Origin: Oscillatoriales cyanobacterium CG2_30_44_21
GTDB taxonomy: Bacteria > Cyanobacteriota > Cyanobacteriia > Pseudanabaenales > Pseudanabaenaceae
DNA length: 49,062 nt
Assembly: GCA_001873375.1 (NCBI GenBank)
Contig: MNZA01000078.1
Coordinates: 1-49,062 of the forward strand
Reading direction: 5' to 3'
Shown: piece by piece, positions 9,812-45,813 of the stretch
Layout: every line of letters begins with the position of its first letter
Numbering within the stretch: the first letter of the stretch is position 1
Program-made: the position numbers and the translations under genes
Notes under the pieces: model-generated
What the model was told of the DNA's origin: nothing
Database searches by the model: none
The model's input: the letters and a program-made list of their open reading frames with translations, nothing else

Positions 9812-9823
9812 TCCCAATATGGG

Positions 9824-9880
9824 TTTAAGCCAAAAACATTAAAGGTGGGCAAAGCCCACCTTTAATGTTTTTGGCTTAAA
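9824..9880. repeat. 27-bp hairpin, loop AAA
   Basis: Perfect arms with apex GGGC-AAA-GCCC, between two convergent genes; shares its last bases with the next hairpin. Confidence 0.9.
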
Positions 9881-9914
9881 TAGAAAGCGCCCCAAGGGGC
9901 GCTTTCTATTTAAG
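9875..9914. terminator. 19-bp hairpin covering the infB stop, loop AA
   Basis: CCCC-AA-GGGG apex with an AT-rich base; it contains the infB TAA (9910-9912). Probable bidirectional terminator. Confidence 0.8.
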
Positions 9915-18169: not shown

Positions 18170-18242
18170 GCGTCCTTAGTTCAGTTGGTAGAACGCAGGT
18201 CTCCAAAACCTGATGTCGGAGGTTCGAGTCCTCCAGGGCGCG
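18170..18242 (+). tRNA. trnW: tRNA-Trp (CCA anticodon)
   Basis: 73 bases folding as a full cloverleaf. The acceptor stem GCGTCCT pairs with AGGGCGC (one G-T pair), with discriminator G. The anticodon stem CAGGT/ACCTG encloses loop CTCCAAA, giving anticodon CCA. The T arm is GGAGGTTCGAGTCCTCC. No CCA is encoded, so the 3' end must be added after transcription, which ties in with the two CCA-adding-family genes. It sits between rplS and secE. Confidence 0.97.
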
Positions 18243-20491: not shown

Positions 20492-20587
20492 GCAAATAAA
20501 GCCTCTTTAAAGTTAAAGCTATTCATAAAAAAGCTGAGTCTAATCGTCTTAACAAGCCTATAGCGAATTTATTTTCAACTAAATAGC

Positions 20588-20695
20588 TCCAAAGACAGCA
20601 GGTGTCAATCGCTTAATTTCCTGCCGAGGTGTTCTAGAAAGTATCTTTTAAGGTGCTTCTGCCTCGGTCTATGAATGGACGAGGCTTTTTTAATG
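20588..20695 (+). promoter_or_regulatory. L10 leader: ribosomal-protein autoregulatory attenuator
   Basis: Matches the known L10(L12)4-binding leader: AGACAGCAGG (20593-20602) pairs with CCTGC (20620-20624) around an internal TTAAT element. Two exclusive structures can be drawn. CCGAGG (624-629) can pair with CCTCGG (662-667), or GCCTCG (661-666) can pair with CGAGGC (680-685) to give a terminator followed by a run of T. Free L10-L12 complex is expected to favour termination and so limit rplJL. Confidence 0.85.
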
Positions 20696-20705
20696 GCTTT
20701 ATACC

Positions 20706-27773: not shown

Positions 27774-27804
27774 TTTATTAGCGCGGCTTCGCCGCGCCAA
27801 TAAA
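27774..27804. repeat. 14-bp hairpin, loop TTC, one mismatch
   Basis: GCGCGGC-TTC-GCCGCGC core with TTTATT/AATAAA feet, upstream of rsmE. Confidence 0.85.
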
Positions 27805-27856
27805 CCACAATAATTTTGAAAGCGTTGCATTGCAACGCTTTCAAAATTATTGTGGT
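27804..27856. repeat. 25-bp hairpin, loop ATT
   Basis: Perfect arms with apex TTGC-ATT-GCAA, abutting the previous hairpin. The GAAAGCGTTGC arm word recurs at 37575 and, in part, at 16494 and 39378. Confidence 0.9.
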
Positions 27857-27881
27857 CTGAGCGCCACTCGCTTTTTGGGAA

Positions 27882-29219: not shown

Positions 29220-30854
29220 ATGAAATACCTAAAATACTCGAACAAATTTAGTGAAGAACTAGATTTTTGGTGGCGTGGCAAAGCCGCGCCACCAAAAATC
29301 AGTTCTCTTGCCCTATATTTGCCGATCGCCTGTCTTTGTTTTTTTAGTCCGATGATTGTCCTCAAGGCAATGGCGGGCGACTTGCCCAGCAAAAATCTAT
29401 GGGGAAATCCTAGTTGTGATGTCAGTAAAAATGCAGAAATTTTGCAAAAACATGAACTGCGAAAGCTGGCTTTGATTAAGGAACCGAGTAATCTTTCAGC
29501 GCGATCGCAATATCAAGCCATATTGCAAAAACATAAATCAGAATTACAAGCTTGCCGCGATCGCAACTTTCCGCAAACGCAAGCAACTTGGGTGCGGCTT
29601 TATCCCAATGATGCTAAGGCTGGCGTATTAGAAGATGTGTTTGATAAAGTTGCCAATCGTGGTTACAACCAAGTTTTTATTGAAGCTTTTTATGATGGTC
29701 GGGTCTTGCTGCCTGTGGCGGATAATCCTACACCTTGGCGATCGGTGATGGAAGAGGCGGTCAACAAAGGGGAAGTGGCTGCCGATTATGACCTATTACA
29801 AAAGGCGATCGCCTTGGGCAGAGAACGCGGTATCAAGGTTTATGGCTGGACTTTTGCGATGAACTTTGGCTATGGCTATAGCGAAATCAGTGGTAAGGCA
29901 GCGGCTTTGGCAATTAATGTCGATGGTGAAAATAGCATAGCTAAAACCAATTTTGATCGCGCTCAAGTCAGCAATGGTCGTGCTTTTTATGAAGATGCCT
30001 ACGAAGCAGATCACCTATTTATCGATCCTTACAGCGCGATCGCCAGAAATGACCTGACCAACTTGGTCAAAGCCCTCATGAAACGCCAACCTGACGGAAT
30101 GGTGTTTGACTATGTGCGCTATCCCACCACGCCGACAGGAGCCTTGATTGATAACGTTAAACAACTTTGGATCTATGGACAATCTTCAAAAGCGGCGCTT
30201 TTAAATAGCATCGGCGATCGCCATGTAAGGGAGCTTATGGCAATTTATCTGGAAAATGGCAAAATTACCGCCGATGATATTGTCCAAACCGAACAGAAAT
30301 TAACCGCCACCGCCAAAGTACCGCCCACCAATATCAAAAATTTACCCAAGACCTTGGCGATCGCCCAAAACTTGCTGTGGAACATTGCCACCAACCACGC
30401 TTATCAAGGTGTACTTAGCTTTGTTGATACCGTAACCGCCCCACTTCAGCAAAATAATATTCCCATCGGCACAGTCTTTTTCCCCGCAGGAAACCGTAGT
30501 GAGTCGGGCAAATACGATCCCAAAATGCAACCTTGGGATCGTTTTCCTAAGTTCATGGAGCGCCATGCGATGACCTATGCTATTTGTGATGATGGCAAAT
30601 GCGTCGCCGATCAAGTTGCCGAAGTTGTGCGCCAGTCTGCGCCCGAAACTTTAGTTTGTCCAATTTTGGCAGGTACTTGGGGGCAGAGTTTTGATAGTCA
30701 CGCCAGTTTTGAGATCCAAACTCAAGCCATCCTTGCCAAGCAGCCCAAACTTAAATGTCTGAGTCATTTTGTCTTTTCGTGGATGGAACCCGAAAGCGAT
30801 CGCCTCCGCAAAGCAGGTAAAGCCACAGGACTAGAAAATGCGACAACCCAATGA
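29220..30854 (+). CDS. Secreted GHL10-type (family 10 glycosylhydrolase-like) protein
   Basis: Glycosyl-hydrolase-like TIM barrel (GHL10/DUF187 class), acting outside the cytosol, probably on wall or envelope polysaccharide. From the ATG at 29220 it has 544 residues; a GTG at 29103 could add 39. A membrane-targeting segment (SLALYLPIACLCFFSPMIVL) ends near AMA-GD, a likely signal peptidase site. The barrel begins TQATWVRLYPNDAKAG and includes YNQVFIEAFYDGRVLLP, RGIKVYGWTFAMNFGYGY and PDGMVFDYVRYP. Oddity: residues just before the signal helix (DFWWRGKAAPPKI) are encoded by an 18-bp palindrome of the intergenic hairpin class. Confidence 0.85.
   Translation: MKYLKYSNKFSEELDFWWRGKAAPPKISSLALYLPIACLCFFSPMIVLKAMAGDLPSKNLWGNPSCDVSKNAEILQKHELRKLALIKEPSNLSARSQYQAILQKHKSELQACRDRNFPQTQATWVRLYPNDAKAGVLEDVFDKVANRGYNQVFIEAFYDGRVLLPVADNPTPWRSVMEEAVNKGEVAADYDLLQKAIALGRERGIKVYGWTFAMNFGYGYSEISGKAAALAINVDGENSIAKTNFDRAQVSNGRAFYEDAYEADHLFIDPYSAIARNDLTNLVKALMKRQPDGMVFDYVRYPTTPTGALIDNVKQLWIYGQSSKAALLNSIGDRHVRELMAIYLENGKITADDIVQTEQKLTATAKVPPTNIKNLPKTLAIAQNLLWNIATNHAYQGVLSFVDTVTAPLQQNNIPIGTVFFPAGNRSESGKYDPKMQPWDRFPKFMERHAMTYAICDDGKCVADQVAEVVRQSAPETLVCPILAGTWGQSFDSHASFEIQTQAILAKQPKLKCLSHFVFSWMEPESDRLRKAGKATGLENATTQ
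29262..29300. repeat. 18-bp hairpin inside a coding region, loop AAA
   Basis: GATTTTTGGTGGCG arms with apex GGC-AAA-GCC and one T/G wobble, lying in frame within the 5' part of the GHL10 gene. Confidence 0.85.
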
Positions 30855-31232: not shown

Positions 31233-31337
31233 TACAGTCTATTGAGGCTTTGAGTAGTATAGAGAAATTTTTGAAAGCGGCGCGGAGCGCCGCTTTCAAA
31301 AATTTCTCTGGGTTCTAATTAAGCGCAAAGCGCTGTA
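31233..31337 (+). repeat. 105-bp composite element: TACAG...CTGTA ends with an internal 23-bp hairpin
   Basis: Starts TACAGTCTATTGAGGCTTTG and ends AAGCGCAAAGCGCTGTA. Between GTAT and GGGTTC sits a perfect 23-bp hairpin (31261-31309) with apex GGCGC-GGA-GCGCC. The flanks match the 61-bp element at 8557, which has no such hairpin. Confidence 0.75.
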
Positions 31338-37375: not shown

Positions 37376-37574
37376 TGAGAAATTACTTATTTTTTAATGC
37401 GCTTTAAATTCTATTTTATATCATTTATCTTAGATTATGCCCTAGCAATATGATGATTATGCAGAATATTTTTACGCGCTAGCCTTCTACTTGTATTAAT
37501 TTGCGAAAGTGGCAAAGTAATTTTTTTAGAATATATATTTCTACGCCTTATGCGCTTACTTACAACATTTGTCA

Positions 37575-37631
37575 AACCAATAATAAATATGAAAGCGTTG
37601 CGAAGCAACGCTTTCATATTTATTATTGGTT
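37575..37631. repeat. 27-bp hairpin, loop GAA
   Basis: Perfect arms with apex TTGC-GAA-GCAA; followed by GCGCAAAGCGCTGTA (37641-37655), the end module of the TACAG element. Confidence 0.9.
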
Positions 37632-37697
37632 CGGGTTTAGGCGCAAAGCGCTGTAATCCCAATTCACAAACAATGTAAGTAGCTAGGCATAAGTAAC

Positions 37698-39356: not shown

Positions 39357-39377
39357 ACAAAGCTTTTCGCTTAATCA

Positions 39378-39436
39378 AAACCGAGAGAAATTTTAAAAGC
39401 GTTGCGAAGCAACGCTTTTAAAATTTCTCTCGGTTT
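39378..39436. repeat. 28-bp hairpin, loop GAA
   Basis: Perfect arms with apex TTGC-GAA-GCAA; convergent gap; the longest stem class along with 1977-2035. Confidence 0.9.
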
Positions 39437-39439
39437 GGG

Positions 39440-39943
39440 TTAAGGGGCAATATATCCTTGGATATTTTCAGGACGCAATGGACGCATAATTTGATTAGCG
39501 CGAACCACTTGCTGATCAGTGCCTTGGACAACAATCAAATATTTACCTTCATCAAGGCGATTACGCAGTGGCACAGAGTCGCTGCTAGTCGCCACGCCAA
39601 CGCCGCCGCCCACAAAAATACTACCCATCGCGCCGCCAAAGGCTCCCAATAAACCACCAATCGCATGGTTGCCGATCGCCCCTGCCCAAGCAAAGGTATG
39701 TAAATCAGTGACGAGGCTAAATCCAACTCCTGAGAAAAATCCAAAGGGAACCAGCCAATAGGACATCAAAAAAGCTTGCTTACGTCCTTGGACAATCGGA
39801 TCAATGAAGCCAAATTCTTCAGCACTTTTGTAGCCCTTTCCTAGAATAGAAATAGCTTCCATCGGAAATTTTTCTGACTCTAGGCGCGTGTAAACTTCCT
39901 CAGCCTTCATGCGATCGCTCCAAACACTGACTAAATAGTTCAT
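39440..39943 (-). CDS. Membrane protein with YflT/GS17M-like N-terminus and glycine-rich helices
   Basis: 167 residues from the ATG at 39943 (MNYLVSVWSDRMKAEEVYTR); an upstream ATG adds seven. The N-terminal 40 residues resemble the short alpha/beta stress-protein fold found in YflT/general stress protein 17M (sensing a strand, a helix with VYTRLESEKFP, then AISILGKGY). Then come two or three hydrophobic stretches rich in Gly and Ala (AIGGLLGAFGGAMGSIFVGG), a glycine-zipper pattern typical of tightly packed membrane helices, and a soluble end (EGKYLIVVQGTDQQVVRANQ). A stress role is only a suggestion. Confidence 0.7.
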   Translation of the reverse strand: MNYLVSVWSDRMKAEEVYTRLESEKFPMEAISILGKGYKSAEEFGFIDPIVQGRKQAFLMSYWLVPFGFFSGVGFSLVTDLHTFAWAGAIGNHAIGGLLGAFGGAMGSIFVGGGVGVATSSDSVPLRNRLDEGKYLIVVQGTDQQVVRANQIMRPLRPENIQGYIAP

Positions 39944-40000
39944 ATAATTTCTAAATCCAAGCAATTTCTAGTCATATCGTAAGGGCTGTGCCGTAAAATA

Positions 40001-40053
40001 AGGAACCGATTTTTGAGGGAGCGGCTTCGCCGCTCCCTCAAAAATCGGTTCCT
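40001..40053. repeat. 25-bp hairpin in a divergent gap, loop TTC
   Basis: Perfect arms with apex GCGGC-TTC-GCCGC, 42 bases before the first CCA-adding-family gene. Confidence 0.9.
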
Positions 40054-42126: not shown

Positions 42127-44616
42127 ATGTTTGAACGCTTTACAGAAAAAGCAATTAAAGTAATCATGCTGGCTCAAGAGGAAGCTCGCCGCCTCGGTCA
42201 TAACTTTGTCGGCACAGAGCAAATCCTGTTGGGTCTAATCGGAGAAGGAACTGGCGTTGCCGCCAAAGTACTCAAGTCCATGGGTGTAAACCTCAAAGAC
42301 GCTCGCATTGAGGTTGAAAAGATCATCGGACGCGGCTCTGGTTTTGTCGCCGTCGAAATTCCTTTCACTCCTCGCGCCAAGAGAGTCCTAGAGTTGTCCT
42401 TAGAAGAAGCTCGCCAGTTAGGACACAACTATATCGGTACTGAGCATTTGTTGCTAGGACTAATTCGCGAAGGCGAAGGTGTAGCGGCTAGAGTTTTAGA
42501 AAACCTCGGCGTAGACCTATCCAAGGTTCGCACCCAAGTAATTAGGATGCTGGGCGAAACTGCCGAAGTATCCGCAGGTGGTGGTAGCGGTGGACGCACC
42601 AAAACGCCAACCCTTGATGAATTTGGGTCTAATTTGACCCAGCTTGCTCAAGATGGCAAGCTCGATCCAGTCGTGGGTCGTGAGAAAGAAATTGAGCGCG
42701 TGATCCAAATTCTTGGTCGCCGCACCAAGAACAATCCAGTCCTCATTGGTGAACCTGGGGTGGGTAAAACCGCGATCGCCGAAGGTTTAGCCCAACGCAT
42801 TATTAACAGTGACATCCCTGACATTTTGCAAGAAAAGCGGGTGGTCACCCTAGATGTCGGCTTGCTTGTAGCAGGTACAAAATACCGTGGTGAGTTTGAG
42901 GAACGCCTCAAAAAGATCATGGAAGAAGTGCGTACCGCAGGCAATGTGATCTTGGTAATCGATGAAGTACATACCTTGATCGGTGCAGGTGCTGCGGAAG
43001 GCGCGATCGATGCTGCGAATATTCTCAAGCCAGCCCTTGCCCGTGGTGAACTGCAATGCATCGGCGCAACCACCCTCGATGAATACCGTAAGCACATTGA
43101 GCGCGATGCTGCCCTAGAACGGCGCTTCCAACCCGTCATGGTCGGTGAGCCTAGCGTCGAAGAAACCATCGAAATTTTGATCGGTTTGCGTCAGCGCTAC
43201 GAAGAACACCACAAGCTCAAGATTGATGACGAAGCGCTAGTTGCCGCCGCTAAGTTAGCTGATCGCTACATCAGCGATCGCTTCTTACCCGATAAGGCAA
43301 TCGACTTGATGGATGAAGCTGGTTCACGCGTGCGCCTGATCAACTCACAGCTTCCCCCTGCGGCAAAGGAACTTGACAAAGAATTGCGTCAAGCCCTAAA
43401 AGATAAGGATGATGCCGTCCGCAAGCAAGACTTTGACAAGGCTGCGGAACTGCGTGACAAGGAAATCGACCTCAAGCAAAAGATTCGCGCCCTTAGCCAA
43501 ACTAAGAAAGCCGAAGCACCCCTTGAAGATGCGCCTGAAATTCGCGTCACCGAAGAAGACATTGCCTACATCGTCAGTTCTTGGACAGGTGTACCTGTTC
43601 TCAAGATTACCGAATCTGAGTCAGCCAAGCTCATGCAAATGGAGGAAACCCTGCATGGTCGTGTGATTGGTCAAGATGAAGCCGTTAAAGCAATTTCGCG
43701 AGCTATTCGTCGCGCTCGTGTCGGTCTCAAGAGTCCCGATCGCCCGATCGCTAGCTTTATCTTCTCAGGACCTACAGGTGTTGGTAAGACCGAGTTAACC
43801 AAGGCTCTCGCCGCTTACTTCTTCGGTTCCGAAGATGCGATGATCCGCCTCGATATGTCGGAATACATGGAGCGCCACACCGTATCCAAGTTGATCGGCT
43901 CACCTCCTGGCTATGTCGGCTACAACGAGGGTGGTCAGCTTACCGAAGCTGTGCGCCGCAGACCCTACACTGTCGTGCTGTTCGATGAAATCGAAAAAGC
44001 TCACCCCGATGTCTTCAACTTGCTATTGCAAGTCCTAGAAGATGGACGCTTGACTGACTCGAAGGGTCGCACCGTGGACTTCAAAAACACCCTTTTGATC
44101 ATGACCTCCAACGTTGGTTCTAAGGTTATCGAAAAAGGTGGCGGTGGACTTGGCTTTGACTTTGCGGCAAGCCAAGAAGATGGGTTGTATACCCGCATTA
44201 GGTCACTGGTTAACGAAGAACTAAAACAATACTTCCGTCCAGAGTTCTTGAATCGCTTGGATGAAATCATCGTCTTCCGTCAATTGACCAAGCCCGAAGT
44301 CAAGGAAATCGCTGACCTCATGCTCAACGAGTTCTTCAAGCGGATGCTTGCCAAGGATATCGTCTTGACCGTGACCGAACGCTTCAAGGATCTTCTAGTC
44401 CAAGAAGGTTACAACCCTAGCTACGGAGCGCGTCCATTACGCCGTGCGATTATGCGTCTTCTCGAAGACTCCCTTGCTGAAGAAATACTCACAGGTAAAG
44501 TGCGCGAAGGTGCATCGGTAACTGTTGATGTTGATGACGATGGCAAAGTTCGGGTAATCGAGCAAGAATCCATTAGTGGTTCCGAAAACAACCTTCAGTT
44601 GTTACCCTCCGCGTAA
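42127..44616 (+). CDS. clpC: ATP-dependent Clp protease ATP-binding subunit ClpC
   Basis: HSP100 unfoldase partner of ClpP/ClpR, guided by ClpS and other adaptors. 829 residues: two N-terminal Clp_N repeats (residues 1-150: [15 protein letters not shown] and [15 protein letters not shown]), first AAA+ module with Walker A GEPGVGKT at 208-215 and [12 protein letters not shown], a UVR/middle coiled coil ([20 protein letters not shown]), second AAA+ module with GPTGVGKT at 548-555 and a C-terminal D2-small domain. The ClpP-docking region is present. Essential in cyanobacteria and normally the most conserved Clp ATPase. Confidence 0.98.
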
Positions 44617-44671
44617 ACTGCATTTTCAGACAATAGGTTTTAGATCATTGTCCAAAAATGCCTTGTCAAAG

Positions 44672-44702
44672 GCTATTGGTAGCGCTCTGCGCCGCCAATA
44701 GC
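44672..44702. repeat. 14-bp imperfect hairpin, loop TCT
   Basis: GCTATTGG...GCGC-TCT-GCGC...CCAATAGC with one mismatch and one wobble; followed by a T run, between clpC and minC. Confidence 0.75.
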
Positions 44703-44736
44703 TATATTTTTTGAGATTTTTTAGAAAACAAGCTTC

Positions 44737-45813
44737 ATGAATGTAAATGAGCGTGTCACAGCCGTTAAAAGCAATCCTCCGCCGCTGTCTAGGAATCAGC
44801 CAAGTGCGGGGGATTTGTCGTATGCGGAAATGCCTGAAGTTGTGGTTACTCCATCGAATGACGACCCCACTGGTAATGTCCCTGCGCCCTTGACGATCGC
44901 CGATGTTGAAGGTGGTGAACTCCAGCCATTGAAGGCAGCCCTAAAAGATGCTTTGCAGTCCCAGCCGACTGAACCTGAAGTATCTCAAGTTCGGTTTAAA
45001 ACTTTACAAGGTAAGCTCAATTTGATTCTGCCATTGGAACCGAAAACACAACGAGAATTTGGTCAACATCAAAGTAGTCCTAAAGCGGAGCAAGAAGAAG
45101 TTACTAAATTAATCCAGATGTTTGGCAATGCTGAGCAAACTGCTAGTAATTCTGATCAGGGCTTGATGGCTCTGACATGGACAGAAATCTTGACGCAGCT
45201 TGAGCAGCGTGTGTCAGCAAGTGGTAATGAATGGAAGCCCCGTACTCAGGTGTATTTGCAAGCTGGCGATCGCCTCCTCGATAGTCGCCAACTTCAAGAA
45301 ATATCTGAGTCATTACAAAATCACCAACTCTTACTACATTCAGTTGTAACTAACCGCCGCCAAACCGCGATTAATGCCGCCAGCATGGGGCTGTGCGTCG
45401 AGCAAGGAACCGTATTTCGAGAACTGTTCGGCTTCAACCCCATTCCTAACGCACTGATCGACGACCCTCTATACATTAAGATGACTGTGAGATCTGGTGT
45501 CGAAATTAGACATTCAGGCAGTATTATTGTGTTCGGTGATGTCAATGCTGGTGCAGAGCTAATTTCTGAAGGCGACATTATTGTCTGCGGCAAACTAAAG
45601 GGCATGGCTCATGCTGGATCCAGAGGAAATGCCCAGTCAATTGTCTTAGCTTCTCACCTAGATGCTACTCAAATTAGAATCGCTAGTTTGATCGCCCGTG
45701 TGGAAAGCCCTAGCACTTACTTTTCTCCAGAAGTAGCTTTTGTCAGTCAGCAAGGTACGCCTGTGATTCAGATTGTCCAAGTTGTTGACTACTACTCAAG
45801 AAATAAAAGTTAG
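44737..45813 (+). CDS. minC: Septum site-determining protein MinC
   Basis: FtsZ polymerisation inhibitor positioned by MinD. 358 residues: about 85 low-complexity N-terminal residues (Pro/Ser/Thr/Glu-rich), a MinC_N-type domain (VRFKTLQGKLNLILPLE, TWTEILTQLEQR), and the C-terminal right-handed beta helix (VRSGVEIRHSGSIIVFGDVN, GDIIVCGKLKGMAHAG, SIVLASHLDATQIRIA) that binds MinD and FtsZ. The disordered extension makes it longer than well-studied MinC proteins. First gene of minC-minD-minE; 61 bases before minD. Confidence 0.94.
   Translation: MNVNERVTAVKSNPPPLSRNQPSAGDLSYAEMPEVVVTPSNDDPTGNVPAPLTIADVEGGELQPLKAALKDALQSQPTEPEVSQVRFKTLQGKLNLILPLEPKTQREFGQHQSSPKAEQEEVTKLIQMFGNAEQTASNSDQGLMALTWTEILTQLEQRVSASGNEWKPRTQVYLQAGDRLLDSRQLQEISESLQNHQLLLHSVVTNRRQTAINAASMGLCVEQGTVFRELFGFNPIPNALIDDPLYIKMTVRSGVEIRHSGSIIVFGDVNAGAELISEGDIIVCGKLKGMAHAGSRGNAQSIVLASHLDATQIRIASLIARVESPSTYFSPEVAFVSQQGTPVIQIVQVVDYYSRNKS

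Follow-up and report, generated by a model that had tools for sequence, protein, structure and literature searches.

The window, a contig of 49,062 nucleotides (C116 of the source genome, G000; G-numbers denote the genomes compared), carries a gene whose predicted product resembles the glycosyl hydrolase-like 10 (GHL10) family (PF02638, E=1e-4, 22 bits). Because this Pfam match lies under the cut-off of 27.9, the GHL10 name can serve only as a lead, and we call the gene GHL10-like. Near its 5' end lies a hairpin with 18-nt arms (29262-29279 and 29283-29300) around an AAA tip and a single mismatch that would be a G.T wobble in RNA. Its 39 nt are codons 15-27 of the open reading frame (ORF) from ATG 29220 and translate as DFWWRGKAAPPKI. 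The features of the locus are collected in Table 1.

Table 1. Features of the GHL10-like gene, its insert and a related copy in the window
Feature	Position	Strand	Remarks
Gene with weak GHL10 match	29220..30854	+	start ATG 29220
Putative inserted element, decayed copy	29235..29315	+	81 nt, 27 codons counting one TA; ends TA.../...CCCTA; matches dispersed element
Whole predicted stem-loop of the element	29251..29311	+	28 pairs, one bulge each side (RNA folding)
Hairpin core	29262..29300	+	39 nt, codes for DFWWRGKAAPPKI
Hydrophobic part, putative signal peptide up to AMA/GD	29319..29375	+	outside the insert; by eye from N-terminus alignment
Sibling copy of the element, between genes	39976..40053	-	81% identical over 78 nt to the G010 gene copy (BLAST)

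The whole stem-loop is predicted to fold at -40.7 kcal/mol (z = -8.6), a stability equalled by none of 200 shuffles, and the window contains 32 hairpins of this class against none in each of five first-order Markov shuffles; a second script counted 28 of the GC-NNN-GC class. These comparisons rule out a chance hairpin and, together with the arms and the frame, confirm what a sequence-only reading of the window had recognized, a real hairpin inside a coding region. That reading described the element as an 18-bp GC-AAA-GC hairpin, which holds for the hairpin itself apart from the mismatch but not for its extent: the inserted unit would be about 81 nt long (29235-29315), not 39 nt.

Start codon and age of the insert

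Searching 38 genomes, 23 of them Pseudanabaena, yielded 20 close orthologues of the GHL10-like gene, the window's own copy included; the other 19 are 72-89% identical to it, and three genus genomes have only a distant paralogue. When the N-termini were aligned, as the sequence-only reading had proposed, 19 of the 20 began with Met-Lys and one with Met-Ile, and in the window this start is ATG 29220, upstream of the hairpin at 29262-29300. The extra residues are absent from 18 orthologues, including that of the sister outgroup G001, and present only in G000 and G010; no hairpin-free genome encoding the same peptide was found among the 20. In the tree, G000 and G010 are sisters (support 100/99), and the insert-free G001, on a long branch, joins them (99/98). 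Since only these two sisters carry the insert, it entered once, in their common ancestor. Removal of the 81 nt at 29235-29315 leaves MKYLKY/LPIAC in G000 (the slash marks the junction), of the same length as MIRRKW/LPIAT in G001. The conserved upstream start, the insert-free orthologues and the length restored on removal therefore indicate that the gene starts 5' of the hairpin and has gained about 27 codons after its start and ahead of the hydrophobic signal-peptide segment, as delimited by eye. Of the two options that the sequence-only reading had left side by side, these data and the presence of the repeat elsewhere favor an insertion that lengthened the n-region of the signal peptide over a true start further downstream.

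The copy in the gene is worn. In G000, its 5' end reads TACTCGAAC where TAGGGTTCTG would be expected and some 3' bases are also gone, while in G010 bases have been lost at the right junction as well. Given the decayed 5' end, the bounds and target duplication of this copy are what we infer rather than read directly. The loop is AAA in both species, with predicted fold stabilities of -40.7 and -44 kcal/mol, and the frame has stayed open in both despite indels with a net difference of 6 nt (101 and 107 nt from the ATG to GCCGATCGCC).

Between G000 and G010, the body of the GHL10-like gene has a dN of 0.045 and a dS of 0.69, which points to strong purifying selection; the gene would still work, as far as selection shows. 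The 27 inserted codons, with a dN of 0.24 and a dS of 0.36 from only 18 differences, appear to evolve nearly neutrally. The insert is best described as a decayed copy of a MITE-like palindrome, either domesticated or merely tolerated as coding sequence.

A dispersed palindromic repeat in Pseudanabaena

The BLAST match of the G010 gene copy to the intergenic sibling in the window extends beyond the hairpin over 78 nt. Aligned copies from several genomes define a repeat of about 100 bp that consists of TA, GGGTTCTGCRATTTAATAARGAAC, a central hairpin, GTTCYTTATTTTACNGYRYGTCCC and TA; its inverted-repeat ends read GGGTTCTGC.../...GYRYGTCCC, its hairpin core has a GC-NNN-GC tip, and it is too short for a transposase gene. 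The core pattern occurs in 24 of the 26 genus genomes, as does the left-end pattern (281 matches at up to 3 mismatches), and the reversed control of each gave 0. A TA lies within 1 nt of the end at 26 of 32 5' ends and 25 of 30 3' ends, as tallied by eye from tetranucleotides with loci fetched by a TA-bearing pattern excluded. As to a target duplication, TA adjoins most ends, but the empty site is a reconstructed one at the GHL10-like gene and is blurred at the second gene described below.

The element ends are absent from the eight DDE_3 (IS630-type) loci of G000, and in G005, where two ends face each other at a distance of 1 kb, there is no transposase between them. Matches to Y1_Tnp, the RAYT type (PF01797), number 0 in G000 and occur in 22 of the 26 genus genomes; a RAYT-driven REP was rejected for lack of a RAYT in G000. 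No autonomous transposon with the same ends was found in these searches, and we therefore call this dispersed palindromic repeat MITE-like.

The sequence-only reading also held that such elements can enter genes and not only gaps, and a second in-frame copy bears this out. A peptide search found the element in contig C175 of G000, where it lies in frame in the gene for a Reg_prop propeller protein of 412 aa. It spans approximately residues 64-95, past the signal peptide, and a downstream start cannot explain it. In the G010 orthologue, which has no element, the stretches that match residues 3-63 and 108-412 are 6 nt apart; in the DNA alignment the linker differs in length too, so that the site is not perfectly clean. 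Among the other propeller orthologues listed, the readable N-termini lack the insert peptide. The element is thus in frame in two G000 genes, one of which also carries it in G010. Such copies are rare: over 1.48 Mb from 11 genomes, of which ORFs cover 82%, 13 of 378 perfect GC-NNN-GC hairpins lie within an ORF of at least 120 aa. These ORFs are mechanical, and most of the 13 are near a 5' end, where they may precede the true start. Owing to its mismatch, the hairpin at 29262-29300 does not belong to this set.

Two further candidates, in a 400-aa ORF of G000 (C94; L036:1627-2829) and a 681-aa ORF of G010 (C1), were rejected as in-gene copies, the element preceding the likely start in each. The former is an annotation trap, in that the element upstream of a gene that we take to be sbtA-like stretches the mechanical ORF to 400 aa. 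A separate observation concerns what is, presumably from its sequence, an RluA-like gene of G011 and G005 (L088:12413-14092, minus strand, and G005:C149 at about 43860-45587), which has hairpins inserted in frame into the same linker in both genomes, but different ones in each.

Several known systems invite comparison. The Rickettsia palindromic elements (RPEs) of Ogata (2000, 2002) reportedly lie in frame in protein genes and are read as protein. The Pseudanabaena element resembles them as a palindromic repeat that forms part of a protein, but differs in lineage and sequence and in the rarity of in-gene copies, which are frequent among RPEs. In Nostoc, small dispersed repeats (SDRs) are reported to be mobile, 21-27 nt long and marked by compensatory stem changes (Elhai, 2008); they are likewise short mobile repeats of a cyanobacterium with such changes, but of that smaller size and in another host. 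Elements of the IS630/Tc1 type target TA. By eye, no GTAG or CGTC tag stands out at the stem foot in the consensus of the element. Bacterial MITEs of the IS630/Tc1 type share with it a size of about 100 bp, inverted-repeat ends, flanking TA, dispersal and the want of a transposase of their own (PMC10969869), whereas the Pseudanabaena element is a near-complete palindrome around a strong central hairpin, and no parent was found for it in the searches above. Intragenic REPs are small dispersed palindromes located mostly between genes, with some inside ORFs, often near the N-terminus (PMC3733652), a distribution like that of the element; REPs are, however, tagged GTAG or CGTC and tied to a RAYT, and G000 has no Y1_Tnp match. 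In-frame palindromes as such are known from Rickettsia (PMC10969869), and the Pseudanabaena family appears to be a new member of a kind already represented by RPEs and intragenic REPs. Among the open-licence full texts searched, we found none on such a Pseudanabaena repeat or its remodelling.

Paired arm changes and loop inversion

Orthologous hairpins were compared between close species in 63 comparisons, which remained after 60 rows had been dropped (25 were reciprocals, 19 had a gap in the hairpin and 16 an insertion in it). Among 1085 stem pairs, 34 show Watson-Crick double changes, where arms evolving independently would give 3.8, and one-sided changes number 58 against 120 expected, singles still outnumbering doubles. 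The loop is the same in 18 comparisons, exactly inverted in 16 and otherwise changed in 29. For the 16 inversions among 45 changed loops, permutation gave a mean of 2.2 and a maximum of 9 in 20,000, a value that overstates certainty in that the comparisons share loci and genomes and are not independent. Divergence amounts to 49% in loops, 5.9% in stems and 7.6% in flanks. Before rows were dropped, 123 comparisons (reciprocals included; one partner without a hairpin) gave 73 Watson-Crick double and 167 single changes, with 33 loops the same, 24 inverted and 65 otherwise changed.

Other counts concern the element and individual hairpins. Among the core sites listed with two mismatches, 59 of 60 have matched changes in both arms by eye, and five sites are listed with one mismatch; the listed sites are a subset of the total. 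Across 53 distinct element copies, Watson-Crick pairing is found at the sixth, tenth and eleventh pair, counted outward from the tip, in 50, 51 and 50 copies, against shuffle means of 35.8, 30.3 and 20.9. One hairpin, CGTAAACCCAAGATCT..., shows paired changes between G007 and G019 together with an inverted loop; no second copy of it at up to 3 mismatches occurs in G007, G018 or G019, and G016 holds two related one-arm matches.

That the arms of the genus hairpins change in matched pairs while their loops invert exactly fits template switching, from which, according to Monttinen and Loytynoja (2022), several compensatory changes and complete inversion of the loop are expected (PMC8794818). Both are seen in the mobile DNA hairpins of this one genus of bacteria, whereas theirs are in RNA genes. 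Stepwise selection for RNA pairing does not predict inverted loops. Upkeep by template switching is supported for the genus hairpins as a class and is presumed for the copy in the GHL10-like gene. We lean slightly toward a broader reading, in which the GC-NNN-GC hairpins would make up a large class of palindromic DNA that template switching keeps rewriting, their arms copied from each other and their trinucleotide loops flipped or replaced several-fold faster than the flanks diverge (49% against 7.6%); covariation would then be a footprint of replication and no proof of RNA function, even in a coding hairpin. Paired changes alone should accordingly not be taken as proof of a functional RNA, and the wider set lets comparative genomics test bacterial template switching. 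At position 172512 of a G002 stretch, the gap shared with G020 contains an unrelated hairpin in each of the two species, which are about 93% identical nearby, as if one had replaced the other; synteny in this comparison is patchy.

History of the insert and competing explanations

We consider it highly probable that a MITE-like element transposed once into the GHL10-like gene of the G000/G010 ancestor, was translated as an extension of the n-region and had its hairpin later kept by template switching. A TA-flanked palindrome of about 100 bp would have entered codon 5-6, a place tolerant of extra residues, where it would be read as part of the signal peptide, and the protein bearing it would be translated and exported. 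Since G000 has no Y1 match and its eight DDE_3 loci lack the element ends, it is by inference that we ascribe the movement to a TA-targeting transposase (IS630/Tc1-like) supplied in trans. At replication, one arm would probably template the other, which would hold the hairpin self-complementary and allow the loop to flip. The locus would then be a cyanobacterial case, seen in two species, of a mobile palindrome that became coding sequence; the gene around it is conserved, and the outgroup has no insert.

It is very unlikely, in our judgment, that the element instead lies upstream of the true coding region, with translation from TTG 29319 or ATG 29352 and an accidentally open frame through the hairpin. 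Intragenic REPs at the 5' ends of ORFs are often so placed (PMC3733652), and the copies in contigs C94 of G000 and C1 of G010 are of this type by their likely starts. However, both codons, which are the in-frame starts available between the insert and the cleavage motif, fall within the hydrophobic stretch and would leave no charged n-region, the upstream ATG is common to orthologues without the element, and the frame is open in G000 and G010 in spite of the net 6-nt difference. The very stable fold near the start (-40.7 and -44 kcal/mol) and the paired changes could also suggest a regulatory RNA, such as an attenuator or translational brake, whose pairing selection maintains, and the genus hairpins are indeed denser in convergent than in divergent gaps (1.65 against 0.65 per kb). 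Such a role is nevertheless improbable, considering that the hairpin has no Rfam match, that a T-rich tract adjoins the stem in only 28 of the 378 genus hairpins, which also led us to reject an intrinsic terminator as the general role, that exact loop inversion is not expected from selection on pairing, and that the structure arrived with a mobile repeat.

Alternatively, the paired arm changes could stem from gene conversion in which other members of the family, and not the hairpin's own arms, are the donors. Copies are many (281 end matches in the 26 genomes searched), and a palindrome can be converted in both orientations, so that such conversion is possible for multi-copy hairpins. As a general account it seems doubtful, as the hairpin CGTAAACCCAAGATCT... 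is single-copy in G007, G018 and G019 yet has paired changes and an inverted loop, albeit at one locus. Template switching within the hairpin is the reading that we prefer.

The only Rfam matches in the window, which left no family to assign to the element, are an ordinary tRNA (18170-18242) and an L10 leader RNA (20571-20700). Other families with GC-NNN-GC tips, for example at 1974-2038, 27802-27858, 31261-31309, 37573-37633 and 39368-39446, have long, near-perfect and very different arms and are mostly intergenic. At 9820-9914 and 27774-27858, adjacent hairpins overlap or have an arm in common, so that two alternative stems compete.
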